From positions 1-64,000 of the forward strand of contig NZ_BSSQ01000009.1 in assembly GCF_030161375.1 (NCBI RefSeq): DNA of 64,000 nt, in the 5' to 3' direction. Below the pieces are notes generated by a model. It made no database searches. It was given only the letters and a program-made list of their open reading frames with translations, and was not told where the DNA came from. Shown one piece after another: positions 5,312 through 34,101 of this stretch. Both the position numbers and the translations under genes were made by a program. The stretch is from Paenibacillus glycanilyticus (GTDB lineage: Bacteria; Bacillota; Bacilli; Paenibacillales; Paenibacillaceae). The first letter of the stretch is position 1. Each line of letters begins with the position of its first letter.

Positions 5312-5377
5312 ATCATACAACGGCTTGGTTTCTTCCGACTACTCTAATTGTAACTTTTAATAATAAGATTGTGACTT
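5312..5377 (-). promoter_or_regulatory. candidate promoter and tandem AraC-type operator for the sensor operon
   Basis: On the plus strand ATTGTAACTT (5347) and ATTGTGACTT (5368) form a direct repeat with a 21-bp period. A TATGAT -10 for the minus-strand operon is the complement of 5312-5317, 30 bp from the proximal copy. There is no good -35, which fits an activated promoter. The same layout occurs ahead of the malE-like gene at 15065-15131. Confidence 0.5.
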
Positions 5378-5394
5378 CCGTTGGATGGCAAATA

Positions 5395-5418
5395 GCCGGC
5401 AGGGAAATCCCTGCCGGC
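5395..5418 (-). terminator. stem-loop after the GH87 gene
   Basis: Perfect 10-bp stem GCCGGCAGGG/CCCTGCCGGC with loop AAAT, 21 bp after the GH87 stop. The T tract is weak (TATTTG), so it may act as an inefficient terminator or as an mRNA 3' end stabiliser. Confidence 0.5.
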
Positions 5419-5438
5419 TTGCCGTTTAAACGATGGAA

Positions 5439-8400
5439 TTAGAGATTCATTAAGCCTGATGCCTGAAGCAGACGCTTCAGGGTAACCGCGGCTTCAGCGC
5501 GCGTGGCTTGGTCTAGCGGCGCGAACTTGCCTGCCGATTTGCCTTGCATTATGCCCGCGGCTACCAGCTCGTTGACGGCTTCATGTGCCCAAGCCGCGAT
5601 TTGGCTGCCATCTTGAGCAAACGTTGCTTCCGGAGCTTGTGCGGACGAAGGTTGCCGCTTCGCCAATGCCAGCGCCCGTCCAAGCATAACCGCCATCTCT
5701 TGGCGGGTAATCTCCTGATTCGGACGGAAAGTTCCGTCGCTCATTCCTTTGACGATGCCGTATTGTACGGCTGTCTTCACATAGGAAGCATACCAAGAGG
5801 ATGGTAATACATCCGAGAAAGAGCTTGTTGTTTCATTTGTTGTTGCAAAACCAAGCGCTTTCACGATTAGTGCGGCAAACTCCGCTCTTGTAATATCGCG
5901 GTTTGGCGCAAACAAGTCAGCCGATACGCCGTTTACGATTCGTTTGTTCGCGAGCAGCAGGATATCTTCTTTTGCCCAGTGGGAGGCAATATCCTTGAAG
6001 GTAACGTCCGTGATTGCAACGGCGTACAGACTATTCGTTGTGCTAAGAACCGTGACGGCCGTTTGGCCGCCTACGCTCTTGAACAAGGCGGGAACGGTTC
6101 TGAACTGGCCGGTTGCCGGATCATAAACAACGACGGAGCTATGTGGATTGTCCAGTTGGCTGTCCACCGTAAAACTTCTGGCAATGAATTGATTGCCGAA
6201 TTGATGTACCGCGATCGACTTGCCGCCCGATTGAAGCGTCAACTCGAAGGAGACCGGATTGCCTGCAAGAGCAAACCCTGCGGACGAAGCCTTGCTCTTC
6301 ATCTCGTCTGCTGCCGCACTGGATACAGGCGAAAGCGTTAGGGTCAGATTGGCATCTGCTCCTGCTAGTGCGTCTCCGTAACCCGCTTCCGCAAGAATGC
6401 TCCAAATGGTTGACGGGAGCGTATAGGTCATGCCGCCATAACGAATGACGATAGTCGCCTCCCGCGGTGAAGATAAAGCTGCTTTCAAAGCCGCTGCCGA
6501 GAACTGAACCGTCCCGGTCGCACCGCCCGCCGGGAGGTTGATCACGATCTCTTGTTGCCCGGACGACAAACCTGCCTTCAACTGCGCATCATAATTGGCC
6601 GTTGGCTCAATCGGCGCGGAACCGCCGCCCGTATCGCCGGAGCCAGACTGATCTTCATGGGTAACGTTACGAAGCTCAAAGCCAGTGCCTTTACCATTAA
6701 AGACAGGGCCAATCTTCGTATTTCTTACAATAACATTATCCAGATTAATCGAGCCGCTGACGTCATTATTCACTTGAATGCCCCATGTTCCGGCGCCGTC
6801 AATGACATAGTTCTCAATCGTAATGCTGCGGGTACCGTTTGTTATCGCATTTGGCCCGTTAACGTACAAGCCTTGGTACGTGCTGCCGAGAGCCGTGTTA
6901 TTGCGAATGTGGATGTCGGCATCAATCGGCTTGTCGCCCGTGAACAGCCAGATCGCGCCGAAGTTTTGCCCCCAGCTAGGTTCACGGCCGCCTGTACGGA
7001 TCAGCGTATTGCGTTCGATCAGCGTTGTGCCGTCAAAGGCAACCGGGTTAAAACGCGTCGATACCGCAATGCCCGCGCCAAATCCTACCGTATCCGAGAG
7101 AAGGTTATCCTGCACTTTATTATCTCGTCCGCCGAAGATTGCCACATTGTCCGCCAGCCATGGCAGCTGGACCGTATTGAAACGCACCGTATTGCCGCTT
7201 ACCCGGCTGTCGTCATCGGATACGCCGTCCGGCTTTTGCGACCAAAGCGCAATGCTGTCGTCTCCGGAGTTGCGGATGTGCGTCTGCTCGATCATCGAAT
7301 TTTTGGTGCCGGTCGTAAAGTTGATGCCGTCCGCGTAAGTATCGCGAATGCGCGCCCCGCCGACGTACAAGCCGTCCGTCGATACGCCTTCGTCGCTTCG
7401 CATCGACCAGATGCCTGCTTTGGCATGCTCAATCCAAACGTTCTGAATGATGGAGCCTTGACCAAACGTTCCGTCAAAGCCCGCTTCGCGCAGCTCGTCA
7501 TGGCGGCCCGTTACGCCAAGATCCATATACAAGTCGTATACGCGAACCTTGCTGCCTTCAACGAGGAAACCTGCTCCATGCAGCTCGGTATGCCACATCC
7601 CCGCACCGCGGATGGTGACATTGTCGACATGAAGAGGTCCTTGAAGGAGCGTAAACACGCCAGCAGGGATCCAAACTCCTGCGTGTTGCTCTTTCGCAGC
7701 CGCAATCGCCGCTTCAAATGCAGCCGAGTCGTCAGAGTTGTCATCGGCCGTTGCGCCGTAATCCGTCACGGACAAGAAGCCTTCCGGTTTCGCATAAGCC
7801 TCAGGAGCCTGCTCGAGATCTACCAAGTCTACTACGTAATAGTCGGCTGTATCATCGGCTTCTTTCACGAGCTTGATCGTGGAACCGGCTGGTACATCTC
7901 CGATTAATAGACGGGATTCATCATAGAAACGGTGAGCATCGCCGTCCGCCGGATTATTCGTCCAAGGGTATTTGCCGTACACCCAGCTGTATTTGCTGGA
8001 CAAGTTGAGCTTGCCTTGCTTCTGGCCATTGATATAAAGCGTCAGCGTGTGGTCTTCGCCGTCGCCATTAACGGAGTCAGGGATGATATACCGCATCGTA
8101 AGAGCATTCGCTTGTTCCGTTGTTGTGAACTCGACATATTGCCCCGTTTCGTCCAGCTGGACGGCTTCTCTTCCTGATGCTTCGGAAGCAAAGGTCTTAA
8201 ACGTACGGTCCTCTTCAATAAGGGTACCGTTCGTTACGCCATGCTCCGCCTCATAGGTGATGAACGGAACCGTTGCTCCGCGATATTCCTTGCTCACCGC
8301 GTTGTGCACCAGGAGATAATCGATGTCGATACCGCCAGTGCTGCCGCTATCATACTGCAAGGAAACCGTGTTCATGCCGGCGCGAAGCGGAAGAGCAAGT

Positions 8401-11369
8401 TCCAAATCCGCCCAGTTGTTGCCGGTGCCCGCAAACTCTATTGGCGCTGTTTGCTTCAGGCCGTTGATATAAATATTCAAAGTCTTCGCATTGCTGTCTG
8501 TATTGCGGTAGCGAAGTTGTGCATCATAACTGCCTTCTCCGTCCGTGTTCACGGCGAAGAGCAACGCCGCAGCCTCTTTGGTAAATCCGGATACGGAAGT
8601 TCCGCTTGCCGTAACGCCGCCTGTCTTAAAAGCGTCTTCCGCTTCATAGCGCACATCGCTCTTCAACGGTTGCAACAACCAATGCGCCGAATCAGCCGAC
8701 GTTTCTACCGCTTGAACGGAGACAGCTCCGCTACCGCCATGCGTCATGTATTGATCCGCAATAGAAGCGTTGCTGAACACTTGATAACCCGCATAAGCTT
8801 CCAGCTTCCATTGCGAAGCCAAACTTGCTCCGTCTGCTGTAATGGTTGCCATGCCGCTCGCCTTCACCGCCAGCTTATGGCCGGTTTCTTGATTCACATA
8901 TTGCTTGTGACCATTGTAATCTTGCGGCAGCCATTCGGCCGCTTGGCCGTCTGAGGCAGCAGGGGTATCTACCACAATCGTTCCATTACGTTCTATGAGT
9001 GCCTTGCCTGTTGCCGCGTCAATTACTTGGACCGCATTAAGCTCTTTGATTACCGGCGTTACCGCATTGGAAGGGCCGTCAACCGGCGGTACCGTTACCG
9101 CTTCGGCCGGTGCCGTCTCGAATCTCCACTGAACGGCGCGGCTTTCAATCGACCGCAGCTCATATTGCGCATAACCTTGCAAATCTTCGGTATGGATGTA
9201 GTTGTCTTCGTAACCTGTCGCGGCACTGCGCAGCAGATATAGACCGGAGGACGGACCGTTCTCAACCACCCAATTCGCTTTGGAATCGTCCGCGGCCGGC
9301 GATGCTGCCGTCTCCAGGTAGCTTTGCAAATGTTCAATAGAAATCGCGTTGCCGGTAGCGCGGTTTACGATTTGGTCCACGCCATTGGTTGAAGTGATCT
9401 TCCAATGCGAAGCCGCATTGTTCGTTGCGGGCGTTCCGTACAACACCACGTTGTTGCCGTTCTCGTACAGGTATTGGCCGGATGCTTCATTCTTGATGCG
9501 GATGTAACCTGCCGGAAGTTGAGCCGGCGCCTCTGGCGCAGCTTCCAGTACCCATTGCGCGCTGCCCCAGTCGGCTGGAATCGGGCTCGCTTGGCCAAAG
9601 CCGGTCTGATCCTGAATGTGGATCCGTGCCGTAGCCGTCGTGTCGTCGCTGTTCTTCCAGTTCGCATTCCAGCTGTTGCTGAACACCTTCGTATTCGGGG
9701 AGCCCGCTACATCCGTTACCGTCCATTGCACGCTGCCCCAGGTTTTGTCGATAACAAGGCTTTCGAGCGGCTTCAGATGAGGGTCGGTTTCCCCTTGCTG
9801 CTTATTAATGTTCTCATTCGAGATCATATGTCCGGTTGCTTTGTTCACTATATAGACCCCTTGCGGTGAGGTCTCAATAGACCATTGGGAGGCCGGATCA
9901 TCCGCAGTTGGCTGACCGTAAGCAACTTTGCCTTCTAGATCTTCATAAAGATACTCGCCAAAATAGCTGTTCTTCAGCCGCACATAAGCAGGAGCCGTCT
10001 CGAGGACTGTAATAAACTCCCATTTCGGGCTGCCCCAATCCTTCGGCACAACGCTGAACTGCGCATACTTCAGCTTGTTCTCCGCGTTAACGTATTTGCC
10101 GCTGTCGTCACCAGGCTTGCCAATCAGCTTGTAGCCTTGATAGGTTTCAATGGTCCAGTCGCCCGCCGTGGAACCATCGGCCAAAGCGGTGGATTTTATA
10201 GCATCGCGATCGCCCGTTACGCCATCATTGTTCAGATAATGGCCGGTGCCGCGGTTCTTGATCCGCTTCACGCCGTCATGATCCTCAACCAGCCACTCTG
10301 CGTTCTGGTTAGACGGAAGCACGTTGCCATATTGAACAATGCCGCTGGCATCTTCATACAAATACAACTGCAACCAGTTATTCTTGATCCGGATATATGG
10401 CTGAACTGGAGCCGTTGGCGGTGCCGGATCCTCCAGCGCCCATTGCGCGCTGCCCCAGGTTGCTTGCGCCCAGTTATTGCCCTGCGCAAAGCCGTCTTGA
10501 TTCTGCACATTAATGTAACTGTTTACGCTTGTTGCGCTTCTCATCGTGACGAAGCCGTCCACTTCGTTGGCATTGGCGTCTTTGGCAGCCGCGATGAGCC
10601 AAGCAGAATCCGCAGTTGGCGTACTCTCGGCAGACAGCGGCGTTGCGCCGACATAGTCGACACTAGTTGCGTAATGGCCGGTTGCCACGTTCCGCAGCAA
10701 GGTGCCTTGCGCCGTATCAATCAGCGTCCACTGCGAGGTTGTGTCCGTATAGTCTGGCTCGCCGTATTTGATCTGGCCGTTGTCTTCATATAAATAGGTG
10801 CCTTTCCAATTGTTCTTAATCCGTTGCGGCGCCCGGACAGGTTCAATCGCTTGTGACTCAAATGTCCATGTCGCGCTTCCCCAGTCCTTTTGCGCCCAAT
10901 TGTTCGATTGCACCGTACCGGCATCAATCTGGAAGTTCACAATCCAGGCCGAGTTGCGCGTGCTTATTATATTGAATTCGCCGGATTTGCCAGGAGCAGC
11001 CGCAATATCCCAAGTGTCGGATACCCAATTCTCCCCAATATCCGAGCTAGTAACGGGTTCGGTAATTTCGTTATCCGTTACATTTTGCGAGTTCATGTAA
11101 TGGCCGGTCGCACGGTTCTTAATCCGTTTGTGTCCGCCCTGTTCTTCAATCGTCCACTCTGCATACGGGTCGTTGGCTTCCGGGAAGCCATAACGCACCT
11201 TGCCCTGCGCATCCTCATAAAGCGAATAACCTTTCCATGGATTATAAATTTGAATGAAAGCGCCTTCATCATTAACCCCGGAAACGCCGTCCGCACTAGC
11301 GGACAGCGGGGGGATCGCAACAAGGAGCGCCATGCAAAGAATCATTAGTTTCTTCATTAATGATGGCAT
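5439..11369 (-). CDS. secreted, S-layer-anchored GH87 alpha-1,3-glucanase (mycodextranase family)
   Basis: 1976-aa secreted enzyme. Signal peptide 1-28; residues about 30-880 hold six related units of about 150 aa, each opening with a variant of RIKNNWxGxYLYED; two carbohydrate-binding-like modules open at YEAEDAF (about 905) and YEAEHGV (about 1038); a right-handed beta-helix catalytic region spans about 1195-1570; an unassigned region follows; three SLH domains end the protein (about 1786-1976). The aspartates D1347 (in YADGINF) and D1370-D1371 (in NSGDDS) keep the 23- and 24-residue spacing of the three catalytic aspartates of GH87 alpha-1,3-glucanases. The start at 11369 was chosen for AGGAGG 10 nt upstream. 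It should cleave fungal-wall or bacterial alpha-1,3-glucan at the cell surface. It is the last gene after malEFG-like genes; exact specificity is inferred. Confidence 0.88.
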   Translation of the reverse strand: MPSLMKKLMILCMALLVAIPPLSASADGVSGVNDEGAFIQIYNPWKGYSLYEDAQGKVRYGFPEANDPYAEWTIEEQGGHKRIKNRATGHYMNSQNVTDNEITEPVTSSDIGENWVSDTWDIAAAPGKSGEFNIISTRNSAWIVNFQIDAGTVQSNNWAQKDWGSATWTFESQAIEPVRAPQRIKNNWKGTYLYEDNGQIKYGEPDYTDTTSQWTLIDTAQGTLLRNVATGHYATSVDYVGATPLSAESTPTADSAWLIAAAKDANANEVDGFVTMRSATSVNSYINVQNQDGFAQGNNWAQATWGSAQWALEDPAPPTAPVQPYIRIKNNWLQLYLYEDASGIVQYGNVLPSNQNAEWLVEDHDGVKRIKNRGTGHYLNNDGVTGDRDAIKSTALADGSTAGDWTIETYQGYKLIGKPGDDSGKYVNAENKLKYAQFSVVPKDWGSPKWEFITVLETAPAYVRLKNSYFGEYLYEDLEGKVAYGQPTADDPASQWSIETSPQGVYIVNKATGHMISNENINKQQGETDPHLKPLESLVIDKTWGSVQWTVTDVAGSPNTKVFSNSWNANWKNSDDTTATARIHIQDQTGFGQASPIPADWGSAQWVLEAAPEAPAQLPAGYIRIKNEASGQYLYENGNNVVLYGTPATNNAASHWKITSTNGVDQIVNRATGNAISIEHLQSYLETAASPAADDSKANWVVENGPSSGLYLLRSAATGYEDNYIHTEDLQGYAQYELRSIESRAVQWRFETAPAEAVTVPPVDGPSNAVTPVIKELNAVQVIDAATGKALIERNGTIVVDTPAASDGQAAEWLPQDYNGHKQYVNQETGHKLAVKASGMATITADGASLASQWKLEAYAGYQVFSNASIADQYMTHGGSGAVSVQAVETSADSAHWLLQPLKSDVRYEAEDAFKTGGVTASGTSVSGFTKEAAALLFAVNTDGEGSYDAQLRYRNTDSNAKTLNIYINGLKQTAPIEFAGTGNNWADLELALPLRAGMNTVSLQYDSGSTGGIDIDYLLVHNAVSKEYRGATVPFITYEAEHGVTNGTLIEEDRTFKTFASEASGREAVQLDETGQYVEFTTTEQANALTMRYIIPDSVNGDGEDHTLTLYINGQKQGKLNLSSKYSWVYGKYPWTNNPADGDAHRFYDESRLLIGDVPAGSTIKLVKEADDTADYYVVDLVDLEQAPEAYAKPEGFLSVTDYGATADDNSDDSAAFEAAIAAAKEQHAGVWIPAGVFTLLQGPLHVDNVTIRGAGMWHTELHGAGFLVEGSKVRVYDLYMDLGVTGRHDELREAGFDGTFGQGSIIQNVWIEHAKAGIWSMRSDEGVSTDGLYVGGARIRDTYADGINFTTGTKNSMIEQTHIRNSGDDSIALWSQKPDGVSDDDSRVSGNTVRFNTVQLPWLADNVAIFGGRDNKVQDNLLSDTVGFGAGIAVSTRFNPVAFDGTTLIERNTLIRTGGREPSWGQNFGAIWLFTGDKPIDADIHIRNNTALGSTYQGLYVNGPNAITNGTRSITIENYVIDGAGTWGIQVNNDVSGSINLDNVIVRNTKIGPVFNGKGTGFELRNVTHEDQSGSGDTGGGSAPIEPTANYDAQLKAGLSSGQQEIVINLPAGGATGTVQFSAAALKAALSSPREATIVIRYGGMTYTLPSTIWSILAEAGYGDALAGADANLTLTLSPVSSAAADEMKSKASSAGFALAGNPVSFELTLQSGGKSIAVHQFGNQFIARSFTVDSQLDNPHSSVVVYDPATGQFRTVPALFKSVGGQTAVTVLSTTNSLYAVAITDVTFKDIASHWAKEDILLLANKRIVNGVSADLFAPNRDITRAEFAALIVKALGFATTNETTSSFSDVLPSSWYASYVKTAVQYGIVKGMSDGTFRPNQEITRQEMAVMLGRALALAKRQPSSAQAPEATFAQDGSQIAAWAHEAVNELVAAGIMQGKSAGKFAPLDQATRAEAAVTLKRLLQASGLMNL

Positions 11370-11407
11370 GAATCCCATTCCTCCTGAAATGAAATACGTC
11401 TTGAACG

Positions 11408-12250
11408 TTAACCTTTGGTCGCCCCGTCGGCAAGACCGGAGATAAGGAACCGCTGCAGCAACAAGAAGACGATCGAGATTGGAATCGCAATCAGAATCGT
11501 GCCCGCGGCAAACATCGTAAAGTTATTAGCGAATTTATCGTTGATGAAATTGTATAAGCCTAGCGCCAGCGTAAACTTCTCCGGACTGCGGATAATGATC
11601 TGAGGCGTTAGAAAATCGAAAAACGGCGCCATAAAGGTGAACAAAGCAACAACCGCTATAATAGGGCTGGCAAGCGGCACGAGAATCTTGAAGAAAATCG
11701 TCAGGTAGCCGGCTCCGTCGATTTTGGCCGATTCGTCAAGGTCGCGCGGAATCGTATCGAGGTAACCTTTTACAAGGAATAGGTTCATCGGAAGCCCGCC
11801 AAACACATAGATCAGGATCAGTCCCGTAAACGTATCGAGCAGATTGACGGTATTAAGCAGCAAGTAGATGGCCACCATCCCCATTAACACCGGAAACATC
11901 TGGAGGAGCAGGAACGTGTAAATGCTGTTCTTGCGTCCGACAAACCGGAAACGGGAGAACACATAAGCAACGATCGATACGAGACATACGGATGCAAGGC
12001 CGTTCGCAAAGGCGATGATCAGCGTATTTTTGTACCATAACGTGTAGTTGCTGCTTGGATTGTTGAACAGCCACCGGTAATGCTCGAGCGACCAGTTGTC
12101 CGGAATCATCTTGAGCGAGAACAAGCTGGTGCCCGGGTTGAGCGACATGCTGAACGCCCAGAGCAGCGGGTATAAGATGACGGCAAACATAATTAGAACG
12201 ACTAGATAAATGCCGGACACTTCCAGAGCGGATTTGAGCGAACGTTTCAT
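11408..12250 (-). CDS. MalG-type ABC sugar permease
   Basis: About 280-aa inner-membrane permease with six predicted helices and the cytoplasmic EAA-loop (ESAKIDGAGYLTIFFKILVPL) that docks on the ATPase. The sequence resembles maltodextrin MalG/GanQ permeases. The start at 12250 lies 1 bp after the MalF-like stop and has GAGGAGG 12 nt upstream inside that gene; the longer frame to 12307 would overlap it needlessly. With the two upstream genes it forms an oligosaccharide importer, plausibly for the products of the adjacent GH87 enzyme. No ATPase gene is nearby. Confidence 0.9.
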   Translation of the reverse strand: MKRSLKSALEVSGIYLVVLIMFAVILYPLLWAFSMSLNPGTSLFSLKMIPDNWSLEHYRWLFNNPSSNYTLWYKNTLIIAFANGLASVCLVSIVAYVFSRFRFVGRKNSIYTFLLLQMFPVLMGMVAIYLLLNTVNLLDTFTGLILIYVFGGLPMNLFLVKGYLDTIPRDLDESAKIDGAGYLTIFFKILVPLASPIIAVVALFTFMAPFFDFLTPQIIIRSPEKFTLALGLYNFINDKFANNFTMFAAGTILIAIPISIVFLLLQRFLISGLADGATKG

Positions 12251-12251
12251 C

Positions 12252-13562
12252 TTAGTACATATCCTCCTCTCTGAAGGAACGGGTTCTGCTGAATTGATAG
12301 AGAGCAAACGCGGCTACGACAATACCCATGATGATGGACACGGCTGCAGCCATTTTGTAGTTATTCTCCTTGAACGTCAGGCTGTACACCCATGAGATCA
12401 GAATGTCGGTTGCGCCCGAATTCTGGCCTGGCACCGGCGGACCGCCTTTGTTGAACAGGTAAATAATATTGAAGTTATTGAAATTGTACGAGTATTGCAT
12501 GATGAGCAGCGGAGCCGTTGCGAACAGCACATGCGGCAACGTGATGAAGCGGAATTTCTTCCAACGGGAACCTCCGTCCACGTCGGCCGCTTCGTACCAG
12601 TCTTTCGAGATCCCTTGCAGCACACCCGTGATCAGAGTAAATACGTAAGGGAAGCCGAGCCAGATCTGAATCCCGATAATCGCTACGCGTGCCCAAACCG
12701 GATCCGACAGCCAAGGAATCGTCACGCCAAAGTGGGAGAAAATGTCCCGGTTGATCGCGCCAAACGTATCGTTGAACATCGCCGTAAACACGAGCACGGT
12801 CATAAACGATGGAACCGCCCAAGGCAGGATCATAACGGTTCGTATCAAACGCTTGAACCTGACGCGGCTGTCATTAATCATTACGGCCAGGAAAAAGGCC
12901 AGGACGATCTGAAGAGTGGTTGCGACCAGCGTCCATACCACCGTCCAGGAAAGAACGGTAAACAAGCTTTTGCTCCACACCGCTTCCGTGAACAGCGCTT
13001 TGAAGTTCGCAAAGCCGACCCAATCCAGTAAATGAGCAGGCGGAGAATTGTACAGGTTGTAGTTGGTAAAAGCGAGTGAGATCATAAACAGCAGCGGGAA
13101 AATGACGATCAATGCCATCATGATGAAGTTCGGCACGACAACGAAATAAGGGAAGCCATGCTCCCAGCTGTCCTGGAAAGCTTGGCGGACCGACGGCGTG
13201 CGGGCGCCCGCCTGCCGCTTCTTCGCATCCTTGCGGGCATCAAGCAAATTCAGCGCGTAAAGGCCAAGCAGGATGATGCCAATGATGGAGGATAACAAGC
13301 CTTGAACGAGTAGATTCCGGGAATCGTCAGTCTCCGGATTATCCCCAAGCGTAATCATTCCCGCGATGCTGCTAGCGATAGGCACGGACAACGCAATGAT
13401 CAAGCTTAAGCCAATTACAAGAAATACAATTCCTTTGATCCACCGTCGGTTATACAGCTGACCTAGTCCCGGCACAATCGAGAGGAGTGTTGCCAGCTGC
13501 GGATTATGATTGGTTGGGATGGGACTGGCCTGCGGCGCCGGCCGCGTAGCGTTGATGTTCAT
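12252..13562 (-). CDS. MalF-type ABC sugar permease
   Basis: About 436-aa permease, longer than most in the family because the N terminus carries extra hydrophobic segments (LLSIVPGLGQLYNRRW and following) before the conserved domain, as in Firmicute maltodextrin or galactan MalF-like proteins. The EAA loop EAADVDGGSRWKKFRFITLP is clear. The ATG at 13562 has a GGAAGGTG site at good spacing and is preferred over the frame start at 13580. It is the middle gene of a malE-malF-malG order; a stem-loop separates it from malE. Confidence 0.9.
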   Translation of the reverse strand: MNINATRPAPQASPIPTNHNPQLATLLSIVPGLGQLYNRRWIKGIVFLVIGLSLIIALSVPIASSIAGMITLGDNPETDDSRNLLVQGLLSSIIGIILLGLYALNLLDARKDAKKRQAGARTPSVRQAFQDSWEHGFPYFVVVPNFIMMALIVIFPLLFMISLAFTNYNLYNSPPAHLLDWVGFANFKALFTEAVWSKSLFTVLSWTVVWTLVATTLQIVLAFFLAVMINDSRVRFKRLIRTVMILPWAVPSFMTVLVFTAMFNDTFGAINRDIFSHFGVTIPWLSDPVWARVAIIGIQIWLGFPYVFTLITGVLQGISKDWYEAADVDGGSRWKKFRFITLPHVLFATAPLLIMQYSYNFNNFNIIYLFNKGGPPVPGQNSGATDILISWVYSLTFKENNYKMAAAVSIIMGIVVAAFALYQFSRTRSFREEDMY

Positions 13563-13603
13563 GTTTGGTTCACCTTCCATATTTCCGAATGCAATTTAAT
13601 GGA

Positions 13604-17863: not shown

Positions 17864-17874
17864 GAAAGCACCCC

Positions 17875-26615: not shown

Positions 26616-26649
26616 TTCCCCCAGTGCAATGTAATAGCTTACAGGACTT

Positions 26650-26699
26650 ATATTAAGGAACCCGCTAGCCCCGTTCTATACTAAGATTGCAACATCGAT
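26650..26699 (-). promoter_or_regulatory. candidate promoter and operator of the beta-glucan binding-protein gene
   Basis: ATTGCAACATCGAT at 26686-26699 matches ATTGCAACAACGAT at 34074-34087 in 13 of 14 positions. A TAATAT -10 candidate (complement of 26650-26655) is 31 bp away from the motif start, the same distance as from the TATAAT to the motif at 34 kb. Confidence 0.55.
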
Positions 26700-26786
26700 T
26701 GCACTTCTTTAGGATGTTCGAAATTGAATATGTATCTTAAAATTTTACTGTACCCGGCCGCTTGTGTCAGTTGGAATTTCCTGTAC

Positions 26787-26828: not shown

Positions 26829-27542
26829 TTAATTGCTCGTATATTTCGTCCAATCGTACTCCGCGTAGAGTGGATTGGCGCCGTTGTAGGCGCCGAGCCA
26901 GCCGTCTACGCCGGTGCCGTTCCAGATGTTCATCATGATTTTGCCCGGATTGCTTGGGATGTTGGAGGTCGCCGTATGCTTCAGCACACCGTCCACATAC
27001 CATTGAATCGAGCCGGCTTGCCAGTTAAACGCGTAAGTATGGAAACCTTGCGAGGCATCAAAGCCAAGATCGACAACCTTCTCGTGGCCGCCAACGCCAT
27101 TCGTGAAGTAGTTGAACTGCACCTTCGTTGTATCCTTGCCGAGGAACTCGATGTCGATCTCATCCCATGGCGTTCCGTCGGCCGGGCCGGTGTACGTGAA
27201 GAAGGAGGAGACGATACCGGTATTTTTCGCAGGTTTCATACTAACCTCGTAGAGGCCGTAACCGTATTTGTATACGGACCGGAATTCCGCGCAATCAAAC
27301 ACGTTGTACGCCGAGCTCGTTAATCCCAGCTTCAGATGGCCGTCGCTGGTAAAGCTTACGTTGTTCGCCCGCCAGGTACAGTTGAACATGCCGCCGTTCG
27401 AGTAGCCGTCCGCCTTCTGCCAGGTGACCGGATTGTAGTAAGTCAGCGGTTCCCAAAACTCCGTAGCCCCGTAAGAACTTGAGACGAATAACATGGACAC
27501 GATTGCCGAACCCGCCATCAGAAGAGACGCTTTCTTTTTCAT
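26829..27542 (-). CDS. bglS: secreted GH16 lichenase (endo-beta-1,3-1,4-glucanase)
   Basis: 237-aa secreted enzyme that cleaves mixed-linkage beta-glucan. Signal peptide [20 protein letters not shown] up to about residue 28; the rest is one GH16 jelly-roll domain of the usual 210-aa size. The catalytic motif [10 protein letters not shown] supplies E128 (nucleophile), D130 and E132 (acid/base). Other signatures are [14 protein letters not shown] and [17 protein letters not shown]. The start at 27542 has GGAGGT 6 nt upstream. It follows the laminarinase gene by 54 bp in the same operon. Similarity to Bacillus and Paenibacillus BglS/LicB is obvious by eye. Confidence 0.95.
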
Positions 27543-27596
27543 GGAACACCTCCGGTTATAGTCCAAACCTTAAAGCAATCGATCTATTAAATGGCG

Positions 27597-30500
27597 TTAA
27601 ACCGGTCCAAGATTGACCAAGCTAACGTCCGAGATCGTGATCATGGCATTGCCGGCATTACCGCCTGGAATATTGCCCATATCGAAGGAAATGCGGGATG
27701 TATTATAACCCTCGTCGGTTACGTCAAACGTAAAGGTGAACGTCTGCTCTTCTTCCGTCAAATCTACCTGCTGGCCGTAATAGCCATGCCAGGCATACCC
27801 CGCAGGCACATCCACCCAGCCGATTCCAAGCCCAAGCTTTCTGGCCGTGCTTGCTTTTGCTTTGAAGCTAAACGAATATTTATAACCCTGCTGAATAGCG
27901 AAACCTTCCTGGATCACCTGGCGGTCCCATGGATTATCGCCAACGGCGCCAATTGAAGACTCGAGCTTACCGTTATTCGCCGCGATCGAGAGTTCGCCCG
28001 GGGCTGCGGTATAAGCGAACCATCCTTCAAGACCACTTGCGAAATTGCCGTTCTGCAGCAGATTCACATTGGTCGGTTGTCCGCCGCTTTCCGCCGAACC
28101 ATTCACCTCGTACAGCCGTACATTGTCGATCCTTACCGTATGCGGGCCTGCGTTGTCTGCCGGGTCACCAAGCCCAAACACAAGTACGGAAGCCGGATCG
28201 GAGTTATTCTCCATTGTAAAAGAGTACGTATAATGTTCTTGGTCCTCGGTCAGCCGTGCCGTGTCTTCCAAATACTTGGCGAACTCCCCGCTGCTCTGCG
28301 AAACAACAACCTGCATCGATTTCGGGCTTGAAGCCGACGCCTCGAATTCCAGCCTGTAGGTTTTGCCTTTCTCGATAGGAAGCGGAGTCTGCTGCAGCGT
28401 ATCGTCCCACCAGTTCGCGCTTGTTCCCGGAAGATCCGCTACAACTTCCCCTTCTTCCGCACGGCTAATGGTTGCCCCGGAACCCGCAATAAAACTCCAT
28501 CCGTTAAGATCGGCATCAAATCCGCCGTTCTGCACGAGATTTGGCGATAGATCGACCCAAAGCGTGTTATAGCCGAAGCCTTGGAATTCCAAGTAATAAT
28601 CATGACCGGCTTCCAACGCGGCAGGCTTCAAATAGATCGTCTTATACGTTTGCCAGCCTCCCGTATTGCCGAGATCATAACTCATCTGCGAGATGACGGC
28701 ACCCGTCTCGTCTTTGATCCGCAGTCGGATTTGCGATTGATCCTGACCGCTGGCGACTCTTGCCGAGATTTGATAGTTCCCCTCGTGCGTTACGCCAATC
28801 TTGTATTTGAGCGTATCCCCTTCATCCATATAAGCGATATTTTTGCCGCCTTCGCTTGCATTCTCCAGCTGCAGCCCTTGCATCTCCCAGGCCCGGGCGG
28901 CCGGAATATGCGTATAGCCCGCAACGGCAAGCGGCTCGCCGCGTTTCACAAGCCGCACATTATCCACGTAAATCTTGCCCGTATCGCCGCCGAACAACAG
29001 CTTTAACTCCGCATTCGCTTGATCTGCGCCGTCCCCTACAATTGCTTCAAGCGAGTAGGTTTGCATCGTTGTTCCTAGCGTGACGTTGCTTCCTCCCGGG
29101 AACGCAACCGAATGATCGCTTGTCAGGTCAACCTTCATACTCCGTTGCATATCGGCTTTGGCATCGAAATAAATCGCGTATTCGCTGTTCTTCTCAAGCA
29201 CCAGATCCGGCTGGGTAACCGAGACCGCTTCCGCTGCCGTACCGCCATTCTTCACATCAACAACCAGTTGCCGTTCATAGATCGGAAAAGCCAGGAAGTT
29301 ATTGACGCTAACCGTAGCTTCAGCATCCGAAGCCACCGCCTTGGTCCAGAATGCCAACCGGTCTTTCCCTTGATCAAACGTGCCGTTATAGATCAAGTTG
29401 CCGTCAGCTAGCGCCGTCCGCTCCGCCGGTACCTCCGGCTGCAGAGACGCATCGCCAATCTCAACCAGCTTCGCATTGGCGAGATAAACAGCGGTGTCAT
29501 CTTTGCCAAGATTGAATTCAAATCTCGCGTTATTATCCGTGCCTTCCAGCATGTCGAACGTATATTCATAAGACTTCCAATCGGTTGTCAGATTCGCGTA
29601 TTGCTCGCCCGAATAGTTCTTCCAGCTCTTCTCGAACTGATTCACCTTGGACATAAGCGTACGCGTTCCGTCCGCCTTCGCGTCGTAAGTGACTTTATAC
29701 TTCTTGCCCTTCTGCAAAAAGACCGGCATCTGCGTAAGCTGAACGGAATAAACTTCCGTGCCGCTGTTATCGATCGCGATTTTTGCCGCTTTCCCTTGTG
29801 CCGCGTCATCCAATACCGTCACTTCGCCGGTACCGCCCGCATTCAAGAGAAACTGCCAATCTTGCGGAACGCCATTTGCATCAGTAGGCTGCGTAAATTT
29901 CTCGTTATAGAGCAAATTCCCGTCTGCTTGCGGCTCGCGTTTGGGCGATGGCTCCGGCGGATTGCCCGTTACGTCTTCCCAGCTGGCGAGATTCTTGTAT
30001 TCATACACGCGGACAAAATCCACATTCATCTGATCCGCCGCAAAATCGCTGTTAGGCGCTCCCGGCCAATCTCCGCCAACGGCCAAATTCAAGATGAGAT
30101 AAAACGGCCGGTCAAACGGCGCGGGATACGTATAATATTCCGGCTGTCCCGGACCTTTTGTTTTCCAGTCTCTCACTTCATGGTAGAGTTCTCCGTCCAC
30201 GTAGAACCGGATAACCCCCGGCAGCCATTCCAGTTGAAAATCATGATAATCATCGGCAAACGACTTGCCCTCAGGCAAAACATAGCTACTCTGATCGGAG
30301 CCATGCGAACCGTCAGGTTGAACGCTATCGTAATGAAGCGTGCCATAAGCGCGGTTCTTGTTCGCCCCGCCGATCAGCTCCATCAGGTCAATCTCGCCGG
30401 ATGCGGGCCAGCCCCCGTAATGGGCTTCATCCGTTGGCAGCAGCCAAATCGCCGGCCACATGCCTTGCTGAACCGGAAGTTTCGCGCGAACCACCACTTT

Positions 30501-31904
30501 GCCGTAAGTCCAGTCGCCCTTTTCTTTGGTAATCAGCTTCGCGGACGTATACTGGCTGCCTTTATGTTCTTCTTTCTTCGCTTTGATGCTTAAGACGCTG
30601 CGGTCTCCGTCCTTCTCGATAACTGCATTATCCGGATTGTAATATTCCAGCTCGTTATTGTAGACGACGCCGGTATCCTGTACCGTCCATTTGCTGGAAT
30701 CAAGCGAAGAAGCATTAAATTCGTCATTCCAGACCAACTTCCATTCATTATCCGCAATGGTTGTTGAAGGCACGGGCTTCTCGCCGGATGTTGCCGGCGG
30801 ATTTGTTGTACCGCTTCCCGTTGAGCCAGAGCCTCCGGCTACTAGCGATGTTACTGTGCCAGCCGGTACCGATTTGTCATTGACCGTGACGCCGTCCGAT
30901 TGAACTTGCAGCTTCCGCGCCGCGCTGTCTTCCGACCACTCGAAATCCGTCGGCTGCTGGATCAGCACTTCGCCGGCTGTCGTGCCGTTCGAGAAAACAA
31001 CCCGTACCGGACTGCCTGGCTTGTTAATAAGCACTTCATTCAGCTGGGCATGATCAAATACAACGGAGTGGCTTCCGCCGCCTTTAATAACGGTCTTGCC
31101 TGTCACGGACACGTCCTTTAACGCAACGTCGCCTTCCTTAATTCCTTCGGCAAGCAGCAGGTTCCCGTGCACAGCCGTACCAGTGACCGTCACGCCGGTT
31201 GAGCGGATAATGAGGTTGCCTTCCACTTCAGCGGCATCATACGCGGCAGGCTGCGTAACCAAATCACCGATCATGCCGGACAATAGAACGGCTGATTCGG
31301 CGCGCGTAATCGGCGATTTCGGCTGAAGTTTGCCGTTGTAGCCTTTTATGTATTTTTCGTCTGCTAAATAGGTAAGCGCTTTCTTGGCATAGCCGGATAC
31401 ATCCGCGTAATCCTTATATTGCCGAAGCGCCGCATCCGATTCGGAGCCCGTCGACAGCTCGAACGCACGGTCGATCATAACTGCCGCGTCTTCTCTTGTA
31501 ATGCTGGCGTTTGGCGCAAAATGCCGGGCATCCACGCCTTGCACAATTCCCGATCCGCTTGCTTTTGTTACCGCGTCATAATACCAGGCGTTCTGCGCTA
31601 CATCTTGAAAGCCGTCCTTATTCGATCCGGCAAACCCGAATACCCGGTCCAGCATCGTAATGAACTCGGCTCGGCTGATGGTAGAACCGGGCTTAAACCC
31701 GCCATCTTCGTAACCGCTTACAACTCCAAACGAAGCCATGCGCTTCACTGCCGTTTCTGCCCAATGCCCTGTCATATCCAGAAACGACGTAGCACTAACC
31801 GGCTCCTCGGCGTGAACGCGATTCCCGCCGGCAAACGGACTTATGCACGAGAGAAGCATGCTCCCAATCATCAATTGCGATAGCCTTTTTTTCACGATTT
31901 CCAT
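27597..31904 (-). CDS. secreted, S-layer-anchored GH16 laminarinase (endo-beta-1,3-glucanase)
   Basis: 1435-aa multidomain enzyme. A signal peptide is followed by three SLH domains (about 38-225), a linker, a GH16 catalytic domain (about 390-635) and several CBM4-like jelly-roll modules to the end, each opening with a form of NLLxNGxF (for example NLIYNGTFDQG, NLVQNGGFDADLNGW, NLLQNGNFASGLEGW). The catalytic motif GEIDLMELIG gives E504, D506 and E509; the extra Met is typical of laminarinases as opposed to lichenases. The ATG at 31904 has AGGAGG 10 nt upstream and is preferred to the TTG at 31910. Here the SLH block is N-terminal, unlike the GH87 enzyme. It lies between permease and lichenase genes in one transcription unit. 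Confidence 0.93.
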   Translation of the reverse strand: MEIVKKRLSQLMIGSMLLSCISPFAGGNRVHAEEPVSATSFLDMTGHWAETAVKRMASFGVVSGYEDGGFKPGSTISRAEFITMLDRVFGFAGSNKDGFQDVAQNAWYYDAVTKASGSGIVQGVDARHFAPNASITREDAAVMIDRAFELSTGSESDAALRQYKDYADVSGYAKKALTYLADEKYIKGYNGKLQPKSPITRAESAVLLSGMIGDLVTQPAAYDAAEVEGNLIIRSTGVTVTGTAVHGNLLLAEGIKEGDVALKDVSVTGKTVIKGGGSHSVVFDHAQLNEVLINKPGSPVRVVFSNGTTAGEVLIQQPTDFEWSEDSAARKLQVQSDGVTVNDKSVPAGTVTSLVAGGSGSTGSGTTNPPATSGEKPVPSTTIADNEWKLVWNDEFNASSLDSSKWTVQDTGVVYNNELEYYNPDNAVIEKDGDRSVLSIKAKKEEHKGSQYTSAKLITKEKGDWTYGKVVVRAKLPVQQGMWPAIWLLPTDEAHYGGWPASGEIDLMELIGGANKNRAYGTLHYDSVQPDGSHGSDQSSYVLPEGKSFADDYHDFQLEWLPGVIRFYVDGELYHEVRDWKTKGPGQPEYYTYPAPFDRPFYLILNLAVGGDWPGAPNSDFAADQMNVDFVRVYEYKNLASWEDVTGNPPEPSPKREPQADGNLLYNEKFTQPTDANGVPQDWQFLLNAGGTGEVTVLDDAAQGKAAKIAIDNSGTEVYSVQLTQMPVFLQKGKKYKVTYDAKADGTRTLMSKVNQFEKSWKNYSGEQYANLTTDWKSYEYTFDMLEGTDNNARFEFNLGKDDTAVYLANAKLVEIGDASLQPEVPAERTALADGNLIYNGTFDQGKDRLAFWTKAVASDAEATVSVNNFLAFPIYERQLVVDVKNGGTAAEAVSVTQPDLVLEKNSEYAIYFDAKADMQRSMKVDLTSDHSVAFPGGSNVTLGTTMQTYSLEAIVGDGADQANAELKLLFGGDTGKIYVDNVRLVKRGEPLAVAGYTHIPAARAWEMQGLQLENASEGGKNIAYMDEGDTLKYKIGVTHEGNYQISARVASGQDQSQIRLRIKDETGAVISQMSYDLGNTGGWQTYKTIYLKPAALEAGHDYYLEFQGFGYNTLWVDLSPNLVQNGGFDADLNGWSFIAGSGATISRAEEGEVVADLPGTSANWWDDTLQQTPLPIEKGKTYRLEFEASASSPKSMQVVVSQSSGEFAKYLEDTARLTEDQEHYTYSFTMENNSDPASVLVFGLGDPADNAGPHTVRIDNVRLYEVNGSAESGGQPTNVNLLQNGNFASGLEGWFAYTAAPGELSIAANNGKLESSIGAVGDNPWDRQVIQEGFAIQQGYKYSFSFKAKASTARKLGLGIGWVDVPAGYAWHGYYGQQVDLTEEEQTFTFTFDVTDEGYNTSRISFDMGNIPGGNAGNAMITISDVSLVNLGPV

Positions 31905-31925
31905 CCCCAAATAACCTCCTAAAAT

Positions 31926-32066
31926 GAATGATCACCATAATGACCTTTTAAGAGGTCATCGTGATGATTCATACTTCGAAAGCGTAAGCCTAAAAAGAAT
32001 AATCACACAAACGGCTTGGGAAAAAGCCGTTTGTGATGATTCTTACTTCGAAAGCATAAGCCTAAA
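31926..32066. repeat. two tandem hairpin units with a shared tail
   Basis: Units 31926-31994 and 31997-32066 each hold a long stem-loop (arms GAATnATCAC and GTGATGATTC plus an inner stem that differs between the units) followed by a nearly identical tail, ATACTTCGAAAGCGTAAGCC versus TTACTTCGAAAGCATAAGCC. They lie between the permease stop and the laminarinase ribosome binding site, so they are transcribed. On the minus strand unit 2 is followed by TTTTT. Confidence 0.75.
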
Positions 32067-32090
32067 TTCGTTTATCCTGCTGAGTATGGC

Positions 32091-32110
32091 GAGGCCGCGC
32101 AGGCGGCCTC
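32091..32110 (-). other. GC-rich stem-loop after the LplC-type permease gene
   Basis: Perfect 8-bp stem GAGGCCGC/GCGGCCTC, 14 bp after the permease stop, with no T tract. It may protect the 3' end of the permease message. Confidence 0.45.
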
Positions 32111-32124
32111 ATCCCAGGTTGCAG

Positions 32125-33003
32125 TTACTCTTTTACCGCGCCAATAACCATGCCTTTTACGAAAAACCGCTGCAGAAACGGATAAACAAGCAGAATCGGA
32201 AGCGCGCCGATAAAGATCTGCGCAGCCCGTACCGTACGCTGCGAAATGTTCTCCAACTGCTTCGGATCGACGTTGATTTTGCTGAAATCCTGCTGGACGA
32301 TAATCGTCTGGAGAAGCGATGCCAGCGGATAATCCTTGACGTCCCGCATATAGATCATCCCGTCGAACCAGGAGTTCCATTGGTACACCATCGTGAACAG
32401 CGACAACGTTGCGATCGAAGGCATCGACAGCGGGATGAACACAAGAACGAGCGTCTTGAGTTGGCCCGCGCCGTCCAGATAGGCCGCTTCTTCCAGCTCC
32501 TTCGGAAGACTCCGGAAGAAATTGAGCATCAGAATGATATTCCATACCGATACCGCGCCGGGCAAGATCAGCGCCCAGATCGAATCCATCAGTCCCAGCT
32601 TCTGCACCAGAATATAGCTTGGGATGAGGCCCCCGCTGAACAGAATCGTAAAGACAAAGATCCAGATGTACATCGTGCGGCCGCGGAAGTTAAGATCCTC
32701 CTTCGACAGCGGATAAGCCGTAATGAGACAAAGCGCCATGCCGATTGCCGTAGCAAGGATCGTTCGCATGACCGAAACGCCAAGCGAGTTCAGAAAGTTG
32801 GAGTTGCCGAACGTTTTCTCATAAGCGTCCGTTGTGAAGCCGATCGGCCAGAAGCCTACGAGATTCGACGAGGCAGGAGCCATGCTGCTGAACGAGACCG
32901 CGAGAATATGGATAATCGGCAAGATGCATAAGATCGACAGAAGGCCAAGAAACACATAATTGCTGATGCTGAAAATTTTGTAGCCAAACGTTTTGTGGTA
33001 CAA
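32125..33003 (-). CDS. LplC/YtcP-type ABC permease (beta-glucan locus)
   Basis: 292-aa permease with six hydrophobic segments, the EAA loop (LEEAAYLDGAGQLKTLVLVFIPLS) and the LplC-type C-terminal end FVKGMVIGAVKE. The start is a TTG with AAGGGGG 7 nt upstream; no ATG has comparable support. It begins 12 bp after the partner permease gene. With that partner and the lipoprotein at 24879-26615 it should import beta-glucan oligosaccharides released by the two GH16 enzymes in the same unit. Confidence 0.9.
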   Translation of the reverse strand: MYHKTFGYKIFSISNYVFLGLLSILCILPIIHILAVSFSSMAPASSNLVGFWPIGFTTDAYEKTFGNSNFLNSLGVSVMRTILATAIGMALCLITAYPLSKEDLNFRGRTMYIWIFVFTILFSGGLIPSYILVQKLGLMDSIWALILPGAVSVWNIILMLNFFRSLPKELEEAAYLDGAGQLKTLVLVFIPLSMPSIATLSLFTMVYQWNSWFDGMIYMRDVKDYPLASLLQTIIVQQDFSKINVDPKQLENISQRTVRAAQIFIGALPILLVYPFLQRFFVKGMVIGAVKE

Positions 33004-33015
33004 AGTAGAACCCCC

Positions 33016-33969
33016 TTAGAAGACGCGGTAATTCGCAAATTTATAAGCCATACGGTACGAGGTCGCAATTAGAATGGTTGCTACGACGGATTTGAACAAC
33101 CCGACCGTTGTTGCGAAGCTCATTTTCCCGTTCAAAATCCCTAGCCGGTACACGAACGTATCGATAATATCGCCTTTCTCCATGACAAGAGGGTTATACA
33201 AGTTAAAGACCTGATCAAAACCCGCGTTCAGAATGTTGCCGATCGATAACGTGCCAAGCACGATTGTAATCGGCATTAGAGCCGGCATCGTAATGTGAAT
33301 GGTCTGCTTCAGCCTTGAAGCTCCGTCGACCTCCGCCGCTTCATACAGCGCGGGATTAATGCCGGCAAGCGCCGCCAGGAAGACGATGGTGCCAAAGCCA
33401 AATTCCTTCCACACGTCGCTGACGATCAAGGTAAACCGGAACCAGTTGTTGTCGCCAAGGAAGAAGATCTCCTTGAAGCCAAACGCCGTCACCGCTTTGT
33501 TCACCAGCCCTCCGTCGGGAGCCAGAATGTCGAGCAAGATCCCCCCGAGAATGACCCAGGACAGAAAATGCGGCAAATACACAAGCGTTTGCGTAATCCG
33601 TTTGAAGGCCATCAGCCTTATTTCGTTAAGCAGAATGGCGAAGAGGAACGGAACGATTAACCCCGCAGCCATTTTGAAAAAAGCAATGACAAGCGTATTC
33701 CAGATGACCTGGCCGATATCCGGATATTTCAGCAGAAACCGGAAGTTGTCGAAGCCTACCCATTCAGACCCCGTCAGTCCTTTAAAAGGCTTGAAATCCT
33801 GGAAGGCAATCACGATGCCCGCCATCGGAACGTATTGAAAAATAATGACCAGAATAAGCGCCGGCAGAAGCATCATGTGCAGGGGCCAGTTCCGTTTCAT
33901 GTTCCAGCTTTTCCTTGCAGCACGGCGTTTTTCTTGTGGTGTGGATAGCTGTACAGCTGTTTCTTTCAC
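33016..33969 (-). CDS. LplB-type ABC permease (beta-glucan locus)
   Basis: 317-aa permease: polar N terminus (EKRRAARKSWNMKRNWPLHMMLL), six hydrophobic segments, FQDFKPFKGLTGSEWVGFDNF, and the EAA loop EAAEVDGASRLKQTIHITMP. The GTG at 33969 is chosen because GGAGG lies 8 nt upstream; the ATG at 33984 overlaps that ribosome binding site. First gene of the beta-glucan operon, transcribed divergently from the kinase-regulator pair at 34 kb across a shared control region. Confidence 0.9.
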   Translation of the reverse strand: MKETAVQLSTPQEKRRAARKSWNMKRNWPLHMMLLPALILVIIFQYVPMAGIVIAFQDFKPFKGLTGSEWVGFDNFRFLLKYPDIGQVIWNTLVIAFFKMAAGLIVPFLFAILLNEIRLMAFKRITQTLVYLPHFLSWVILGGILLDILAPDGGLVNKAVTAFGFKEIFFLGDNNWFRFTLIVSDVWKEFGFGTIVFLAALAGINPALYEAAEVDGASRLKQTIHITMPALMPITIVLGTLSIGNILNAGFDQVFNLYNPLVMEKGDIIDTFVYRLGILNGKMSFATTVGLFKSVVATILIATSYRMAYKFANYRVF

Positions 33970-34037
33970 CGCGGTAACCTCCATATTCAGACAAATTTTT
34001 ATACTATGCGAGGTCGCCTTGACCTTGTATGATAACG

Positions 34038-34101
34038 ATTATAGCAACGCCGATTTTGGATCTATATCCTAATATTGCAACAACGATATTGATATTTTAA
34101 C
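34038..34101 (-). promoter_or_regulatory. candidate promoter and operator of the beta-glucan operon (divergent region)
   Basis: A TATAAT -10 on the minus strand is the complement of 34038-34043. ATTGCAACAACGAT begins at 34074, 31 bp from it, and a weaker ATTTTAAC copy at 34094 lies 20 bp further. The motif nearly equals the one ahead of the binding-protein gene (26686). The region also serves the plus-strand kinase gene, so the regulator may control itself. Confidence 0.55.

Follow-up and report, generated by a model that had tools for sequence, protein, structure and literature searches.

Candidate operators of two YesN-type response regulators, sharing one promoter geometry, ahead of four operons of Paenibacillus glycanilyticus

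The binding sites of YesN-type response regulators, which carry a receiver domain and an AraC-type helix-turn-helix (HTH) domain, are rarely known. AraC itself acts at araI1-I2, direct repeats approximately 21 bp apart, the proximal half of which lies at the -35 region. In the Escherichia coli araBAD promoter, the two half-sites stand side by side and the proximal araI2 recruits RNA polymerase (PMC4760080). The XydS/R system of Clostridium cellulolyticum has an AraC-type response regulator that binds upstream of hemicellulase genes in gel-shift assays; in the portion of that report considered here, binding was narrowed to fragments of approximately 245-270 bp only, repeats were noted to which no consensus could be assigned, and no consensus site was identifiable for AraC/XylS activators (PMC3572039). 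For the pneumococcal YesN, the excerpt considered describes no clear repeat, just a conserved AATTC, some cytosines and thymine stretches, and for RR07 of TCS07 it gives the candidate motif CTWWWWWWAG (PMC11034029). According to its abstract, which gives no operator, the CuaDSR system of Ruminiclostridium cellulolyticum has a solute-binding protein (SBP) gene adjoining the two-component system, and induces a sugar ABC transporter encoded in an operon of its own (PMC10384115). Here we describe two candidate YesN-type operators, resolved to the base, together with their regulators, targets, promoter geometry and clade-specific recognition helices, in a stretch of 64,000 nucleotides of Paenibacillus glycanilyticus (contig NZ_BSSQ01000009.1, positions 1 to 64,000; hereafter the window).

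The window contains three pairs of a YesM-group kinase (HK) and a YesN-type response regulator (RR), namely RR1/HK1 (328-3704, minus strand), RR2/HK2 (21331-24752, minus strand) and RR3/HK3 (34122-37485, plus strand), not two; RR2 (21331-22971) was absent from the initial annotation of this DNA. RR1, RR2 and RR3 all matched Response_reg and HTH_18/HTH_AraC above the cut-off, as YesN-type response regulators do, and the adjacent kinases matched His_kinase and HATPase_c, with HAMP. Four minus-strand units, each of which, judging from strand and spacing, would form one transcript, are SBP1-HK1-RR1 (operon 1), SBP2-permeases-GH87 (operon 2), SBP3 alone (operon 3) and permeases-GH16-GH16 (operon 4). 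Each is preceded by a composite two-box site. Operons 1 and 2 carry the RR1 type, GTCACAAT-N13-GTYAC-N7-GTAGT, with 21 bp between half-sites, and operons 3 and 4 carry the RR3 type, TAAA-N14-GTTGCAATnTTAGnATA, with approximately 20 bp between half-sites. We consider it probable, at roughly 85%, that two YesMN-type two-component systems act through these sites as their operators, in an arrangement like that of AraC-type activator sites. The sites and their -10-like hexamers are as follows.

5359..5375, minus strand: RR1 operator of operon 1, distal half-site GTCACAATCTTATTATT
5338..5354, minus strand: RR1 operator of operon 1, proximal half-site GTTACAATTAGAGTAGT, 21 bp from the distal one
5312..5317, minus strand: -10-like hexamer TATGAT of operon 1, at +58 from the distal G, with no TTGACA at a 17-bp spacer
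15112..15128, minus strand: RR1 operator of operon 2, distal half-site GTCACAATCTTATCCTT
15091..15107, minus strand: RR1 operator of operon 2, proximal half-site GTCACCGGATTGGTAGT
15065..15070, minus strand: -10-like hexamer TACAAT of operon 2, at +58 from the distal G
26694..26713, minus strand: RR3 operator of operon 3, distal half-site CCTAAAGAAGTGCAATCGAT, degenerate and conserved
26677..26693, minus strand: RR3 operator of operon 3, proximal half-site GTTGCAATCTTAGTATA
26650..26655, minus strand: -10-like hexamer TAATAT of operon 3, at +58 from the distal half-site
34082..34101, minus strand: RR3 operator of operon 4, distal half-site GTTAAAATATCAATATCGTT
34065..34081, minus strand: RR3 operator of operon 4, proximal half-site GTTGCAATATTAGGATA
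34038..34043, minus strand: -10-like hexamer TATAAT of operon 4, with TGC before it, at +58 from the distal half-site

The initial annotation had pointed to short motifs at these positions, and all of its coordinates and distances were correct to the base. On the minus strand, AAGTCACAAT lies at 5377-5368 and 15130-15121, embedded in an identical 15-mer, AAGTCACAATCTTAT, and the hexamers TATGAT (5317-5312) and TACAAT (15070-15065) start 51 bp from 5368 and 15121, respectively. GTTGCAAT lies at 26693-26686 and 34081-34074, with TAATAT (26655-26650) and TATAAT (34043-34038) 31 bp away, and 13 of 14 bases are common to TGTTGCAATCTTAG and TGTTGCAATATTAG. These motifs are cores of the candidate operators, which are two-box elements of approximately 38 bp, not 8-10-mers. 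The distances of 51 and 31 bp, though correct, were measured from the distal box for the RR1 type and from the proximal box for the RR3 type, so that the 58-bp span common to both types went unnoticed. Of the proximal copies claimed 21 bp closer to the hexamers of operons 1 and 2, GTTACAAT (5354) is a clear copy, whereas GTCACCGG (15107) has just GTCAC in common. The proposed 21-bp period holds for RR1; for RR3 it is approximately 20 bp, GTTAAAAT and GTTGCAAT at operon 4 being 20 bp apart.

The observed layout goes beyond chance. A common 15-mer, as found in the first two upstream regions, was reached in 0/400 dinucleotide shuffles, the longest being 11 nt. For the second pair, the best ungapped 25-mer matched at 21/25 positions against a maximum of 18 in 60 shuffles; its longest exact match, 9 nt, is unremarkable, as 66/400 shuffles reached that length. 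The short motifs alone were not commoner in the window than expected (two matches each at 3 mismatches, against 1.2 and 1.7 in shuffles), and every window match found at up to 3 mismatches was exact for both. In the whole genome, GTNACAATCTTAT occurs five times, twice at these promoters and three times within open reading frames, and TGTTGCAATNTTAGNATANA, at up to 2 mismatches, occurs at its two promoters only. When the RR3 core alone was searched at 2 mismatches, only 14 exact matches stood out, two in each of seven close genomes; outside these seven the core did no better than the reversed control.

These seven genomes comprise that of the window and six further genomes of the genus with RR1 orthologues of 87-89% identity, the best match in the other 44 genomes being 43%. 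In an alignment of all seven, the upstream regions of SBP1, SBP2, SBP3 and the operon-4 permeases each showed one conserved block, with both boxes and the hexamer inside it; the leaders downstream of the hexamers were likewise conserved. The direct-repeat half-sites 21 bp apart at both RR1 promoters of the window were kept in 7/7 genomes. The DNA diverges upstream of the SBP1 and SBP2 blocks. The SBP3 block extends approximately 50 bp further upstream and the operon-4 block adjoins the HK3 coding sequence, so that the edges of these two blocks are less telling. Two of the seven, G010 and G016, lack RR2, HK2 and SBP5 at the locus and have no RR2 orthologue elsewhere in the genome (E <= 1e-100), and their SBP3 and operon-4 blocks are intact, which shows that RR2 is not needed for the operon-3 and operon-4 sites.

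The association of each operator type with its proposed regulator was assessed in 394 genomes of the family, with reversed patterns as controls. The RR1 pattern (at most 2 mismatches) gave 41 matches in 21 genomes, and its reversed control gave none in all 394. RR1 orthologues (E <= 1e-145) were also found in 21 genomes; both regulator and site were present in 19, and 371 genomes had neither. The two genomes with the regulator and without a full site have degraded versions, G343 with 4 mismatches before SBP1, and G068 with 4 and 3 before SBP1 and SBP2. At up to 3 mismatches in 51 genomes, the RR1 pattern matched 17 times in 7 genomes, with 4 reversed-control matches. Since the 21-bp spacing was built into the RR1 pattern, the search of the 394 genomes is no test of the spacing. 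The RR3 pattern (at most 3 mismatches) gave 62 matches in 52 genomes and none when reversed, and these are the same 52 genomes that have an RR3 match of at least 63% identity (partial in G183; the next match is at 49%), with no site in the other 342. The Fisher P values, 4e-28 for RR1 and 3e-66 for RR3, overstate the evidence, as the genomes are related and site and regulator lie mostly in one locus. The assignment of two operons to each regulator in the initial annotation is thus supported by co-occurrence in 52/52 genomes for RR3 and 19/21 for RR1, and by the RR2-less genomes that keep RR3 sites.

RR3 sites were readable in 15/15 loci with RR3 orthologues of 65-75% identity, as against 0/3 with homologues of 44-49%. 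Among 42 named loci, 16/20 with at least 48% identity to RR1 have a site (at most 4 mismatches), as against 0/22 with at most 40%. A tandem-core scan of distant RR1 homologues (L048-L053) gave scattered matches only; a tandem core in L048, L049 and L050 was set aside, as it lies upstream of another conserved gene and not of YesMN genes.

The distance to the promoter is nearly constant. Hexamers, which were not included in either search pattern, had to match at 4/6 or more positions with A at position 2 and T at position 6, and were counted from the first base of the distal half-site. In the RR1 contexts (n=41), the hexamer starts at +58 in 38 and at +57 in 3; in the RR3 contexts (n=42, the distinct contexts with downstream DNA out of 62 matches), it starts at +58 in 41 and at +59 in one. 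Such hexamers were few at other offsets, at most 5/41 for RR1 and 3/42 for RR3, except at +66 (21) and +67 (8) in RR3 contexts, where there is a second AT-rich stretch downstream. The single geometry for activation suggested earlier is therefore supported for both operator types, with the hexamer at +57 to +59 from the distal half-site. At a 17-bp spacer, all 41 RR1 contexts matched TTGACA at only 0-2 of 6 positions; the match was 2-3/6 at an 18-bp spacer and 0-4/6 at a 16-bp spacer, with 4 in three contexts. With transcription assumed to begin 7 nt beyond the hexamer, near 5305, 15058, 26643 and 34031 at the four promoters, the distal half-site would occupy about -70 to -54 and the proximal one about -49 to -33.

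The genes concerned are as follows.

328..1938, minus strand: RR1, YesN-type response regulator (receiver and AraC HTH, with the DNA-binding domain at about residues 428-536), proposed ligand of operators 1 and 2
1935..3704, minus strand: HK1, YesM-type histidine kinase
3727..5277, minus strand: SBP1, solute-binding protein (SBP_bac_1 and DUF3502), likely start ATG 5277 by eye; the listed open reading frame extends to 5316
5439..11378, minus strand: GH87 alpha-1,3-glucanase with SLH domains, last gene of operon 2
11408..13580, minus strand: two ABC permeases of operon 2
13637..14992, minus strand: SBP2, sugar solute-binding protein (SBP_bac_8), likely start ATG 14992 by eye; the listed open reading frame starts at 15058, adjoining the hexamer
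21331..24752, minus strand: RR2-HK2, the third YesMN pair
24879..26609, minus strand: SBP3, likely start TTG 26609
26829..33984, minus strand: operon 4, with two permeases (32125-33984) and two GH16 glycoside hydrolases (26829-31910)
34122..35849, plus strand: HK3, YesM-type kinase, divergent from operon 4
35860..37485, plus strand: RR3, YesN-type response regulator, proposed ligand of operators 3 and 4

The closest named matches of RR1 were from Paenibacillus glycanilyticus, P. lupini and P. catalpae (88-89%). The gene order SBP1-HK1-RR1, on one strand, is kept in 7/7 close genomes; this operon has no permease, and SBP1 is a candidate sensor subunit. SBP3 had no Pfam or NCBIfam match and resembles, by sequence, solved solute-binding proteins, AlgQ2 among them. 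Its start was placed at TTG 26609 because the ATG at 26615 reads ACG in two relatives. An 8-bp inverted repeat flanks the SBP3 promoter (26600-26720, minus strand): its arms are AGTGCAAT, within the distal half-site, and ATTGCACT, within the leader, and both are kept in 7/7 genomes. The conserved stretch at the start of the SBP2 leader (14990-15058, minus strand) could fold as a short hairpin, AACCaCGG-loop-CCGgGGTT. G010 and G036 (L038, L046) have approximately 3.4 kb of extra DNA separating GH87 from the SBP1 promoter, which leaves the operator block intact.

The block HK2-RR2-SBP5-permeases (16391-24752) is present in 5/7 close genomes; in G010 and G016, where it is missing, SBP3 adjoins the remaining sulfatase-side genes. 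This suggests that the block is a cassette that may have been gained or lost. Upstream of SBP5 (21152-21188, minus strand), CTTTTGTGCTGAAAGA(G/C)CGGAATATGGCGTCACTGGC is conserved in five genomes with small changes and, judged by eye, is spaced from a TATACT hexamer much as the RR1 and RR3 operators are from theirs, with no obvious repeat; it is a candidate RR2 operator.

Besides the sites at the operon-1 and operon-2 promoters, a single additional RR1-type site was found in every one of the seven close genomes. It stands ahead of a second GH87 gene remote from RR1, located on a different contig or, in G027, more than 3 Mb away. In the genome of the window, this second GH87 has Pfam alpha-1,3-glucanase domains. 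Copies 85-87% identical are present in G007, G010, G016 and G027; in the window's own genome, G009 and G036, the second GH87 was recognised via 35-37% similarity to the first. The same arrangement with a GH87 paralogue was found in G056, of another genus. The genes behind 40 of the 41 RR1 matches are SBP1-like (12), SBP2-like (20) or GH87 paralogues (8). These data suggest that the theme of the RR1 regulon is likely alpha-1,3-glucan use, the enzyme class being read from sequence and the regulation inferred.

RR1 and RR3 are 28% identical overall. The initial annotation had linked their sites through a core ATTG-two bases-AC. The resemblance is present, but that core is too short: when the half-sites GTCACAATCTTAT (RR1 distal), GTTACAAT or GTCACCGG (RR1 proximal) and GTTGCAATNTTAG (RR3 proximal) are aligned from the G, the common part is GT-NN-CAAT-N-TTA. 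Within each regulator clade the recognition helices hardly vary, but they differ between clades. In the RR1 clade (31 rows, down to 48% overall identity, several of them one protein twice, as with L141/L221 and L142/L219), helix 1 is NPAYLSRLFRKETG and helix 2 is NFSYFAR(L/Q)F, with NPAYLSRLFRKETG and NFSYFAR invariant. The RR3 clade (32 rows from the 52 orthologue genomes) has HPVYLSK(I/V)YK and NNTAYFIRVFK, with HPVYLSK and NNTAYFIRVFK invariant. At loci with at most 40% identity to RR1, the readable helices differ, with sequences such as NPDYL or HPAYL. By alignment to MarA, the residues that differ between RR1 and RR3 would include base-contacting positions. On the opposite strand, the RR1 distal box (ATTGTGAC) looks like the motif ACTGTGACCATAA given as bound by MsmR of Streptococcus pyogenes in the part of that report considered here (PMC9722767), a likeness that may be due to chance.

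Several observations weigh against this assignment of the operators. The patterns were built from the sites, so that conservation within sites is partly circular, and joint inheritance of a regulator and site that mostly share one locus inflates co-occurrence among genomes that are not independent. The distal half-site of operon 3 matches that of operon 4 at TAAA and ATCG only. The hexamers are consensus matches, and a standard promoter scan found no more promoters than in shuffles. G062 has an RR1-type site before SBP2 and no RR1 orthologue at the cut-off, and G364 has one RR1-type site with neither an RR1 orthologue at that cut-off nor a plausible target. Four loci, L142, L146, L147 and L149, exceed 4 mismatches to the RR1-type site. 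Outside the seven close genomes, the SBP1 site was found at up to 2 mismatches in only 5/14 orthologue genomes, and it was not found at up to 4 mismatches in the stretches covered for G295 and G342. In 30 other YesN loci scanned for a 20-22 bp repeat with a hexamer, these spacings were not enriched over others: spacings of 20, 21 and 22 bp gave 2, 5 and 6 matches, several overlapping, and the other spacings from 12 to 30 bp gave 0-6. A shared locus does not, however, account for three facts: RR3 sites are readable at 65% RR3 identity, the third RR1 site of the seven close genomes is distant from RR1, and the hexamer distance is constant. The frequent weakness of the SBP1 site makes positive autoregulation by RR1 less certain than control of SBP2, and autoregulation may vary among genomes.

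Two of these cases offer further details. The G364 site (L271:3494-3531, minus strand) has 1 mismatch and a TACAAT hexamer at +58, with a convergent ATPase-like gene downstream. In L142, L146, L147 and L149, the GTCAC box is kept by eye, with a -10-like hexamer at about +57/58; these are outside all counts.

YesN paralogues are numerous, with 33-49 matches to RR1 in each of 51 genomes. We tentatively suggest, though we think it rather doubtful, that paralogous YesN regulators use one grammar, namely a GT-NN-CAAT-N-TTA half-site, its repeat 20-22 bp on and a hexamer approximately 58 bp from the distal half-site, with specificity residing in a few bases read by a few helix residues. The bases proposed, as part of this conjecture, are CA versus TG after GT, and GTAGT versus GnATA at the far end. 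Were this true, RR1 and RR3 would be two decodable examples of a general operator code; with no spacing enrichment at the 30 YesN loci, the grammar stays a conjecture. As leads only, three unrelated YesN loci show possible tandem boxes with a hexamer at the expected distance: GTCGCAAT/GTCGGAAT at L168:8075 (plus strand), GTCGGAAT/GTCCGAAT at L170:8136 (minus strand) and GACAATT twice at L164:8072 (plus strand).

We propose the following mechanism, in which binding by RR1 and RR3, phosphorylation, activation, sugar identity and autoregulation are what we infer. HK1 would be activated, perhaps through SBP1, which may serve it as a sensor subunit in the way that CuaD serves CuaS. Phosphorylated RR1 would bind the two direct-repeat half-sites 21 bp apart, and the proximal one, ending at about -33 if transcription starts 7 nt past the hexamer, would cover the place of the missing -35 and recruit RNA polymerase to the hexamer 58 bp from the distal half-site. 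RR1 would in this way switch on SBP1-HK1-RR1 (positive autoregulation), SBP2-permeases-GH87 and the second GH87 gene, making up an alpha-1,3-glucan regulon. RR3 would act likewise at permeases-GH16-GH16 and SBP3, probably for beta-glucan, its half-site spacing being approximately 1 bp shorter than that of RR1 at an equal total span. RR3 may affect its own synthesis too, operator 4 being approximately 20 bp from the divergent HK3.

One alternative is that the operon-3 and operon-4 sites belong to RR2, or to RR2 and RR3 jointly, as RR2-HK2 lies directly downstream of SBP3 on the same strand and is of the same protein family. We regard this as very improbable and discarded RR2 as the regulator of these operons, because G010 and G016 keep both sites intact without an RR2 orthologue; moreover, the site is present in 52/52 RR3 genomes, a terminator-like hairpin (24866-24838) stands after SBP3, between SBP3 and HK2, and SBP5, beside RR2, has a different conserved block. 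It is also quite improbable that the blocks are sites of a global (catabolite or stress) regulator or constitutive sigma-70 elements rather than local YesN sites. The operon-1 sequence GTCACA-17-TACAAT scores by itself as a sigma-70 promoter, but operon 2, whose proximal box is GTCACCGG, does not fit such a reading, nor do its orthologues in the six close genomes, and we rejected a constitutive promoter at operon 1 for this reason. Sites of a global regulator would be expected across many genes and genomes, whereas those described here are absent from 342/342 genomes without RR3 and 371/373 without RR1.

The conserved leaders 3' of the hexamers and the short hairpin that the SBP2 leader can form would suit blocks working in RNA, as a leader structure or small RNA, instead of as DNA operators. 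The blocks lie, however, upstream of the hexamers, Rfam gave no match within 3000-38000, and the SBP2 leader fold is not unusual (z -1.4). An RNA element was rejected on the latter two grounds and appears extremely improbable to us. Finally, RR1 or RR3 may bind as proposed but repress, or do both at the divergent HK3 promoter: the operator-4 distal half-site sits where that promoter would have to be, and conservation in the operator-4 block extends right to its edge, approximately 20 bp short of the listed HK3 start. We consider this unlikely, since the -35 is missing and the proximal box ends near -33, as would suit an activator; no HK3 promoter was recognisable by eye, so that repression of HK3 may occur but is not indicated. 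Taken together, we favour the reading of the blocks as activator operators of RR1 and RR3.

As at araI1-I2, the half-sites are paired upstream of the promoter, and RR1 and RR3 carry AraC HTH domains. The fixed distance to the -10 element and a proximal half-site in place of the -35 are common to AraC and both operator types, and the RR1 contexts have no good -35. In contrast, AraC is a sugar-binding dimer, whereas RR1 and RR3 are response regulators with a receiver domain, and the half-site sequences look unlike those of AraC. Judging from its abstract, CuaDSR has the layout of SBP1-HK1-RR1, an SBP gene with kinase and regulator and no permeases; the sugar is cellobiose there and probably an alpha-1,3-glucan product here. 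The pneumococcal YesN and RR07 are likewise YesMN-group regulators with motifs obtained via upstream-region comparison, but neither motif in the excerpt considered resembles the RR1 or RR3 operators. XydR, like RR1 and RR3, is an AraC-type response regulator; going by the portion of its report considered, a consensus is proposed for RR1 and RR3 only. In the open-licence literature, with leads followed in part, we recognised no paper as defining the RR1 or RR3 operators. These operators would allow regulon prediction in related genomes and provide inducible promoters for Paenibacillus and Cohnella, and would set up a test of how specificity diverges among paralogous regulators that keep one activation geometry. 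Compared with the systems above, the RR1 and RR3 operators thus appear to extend a known class of site, with unusually strong support from the comparison of genomes.

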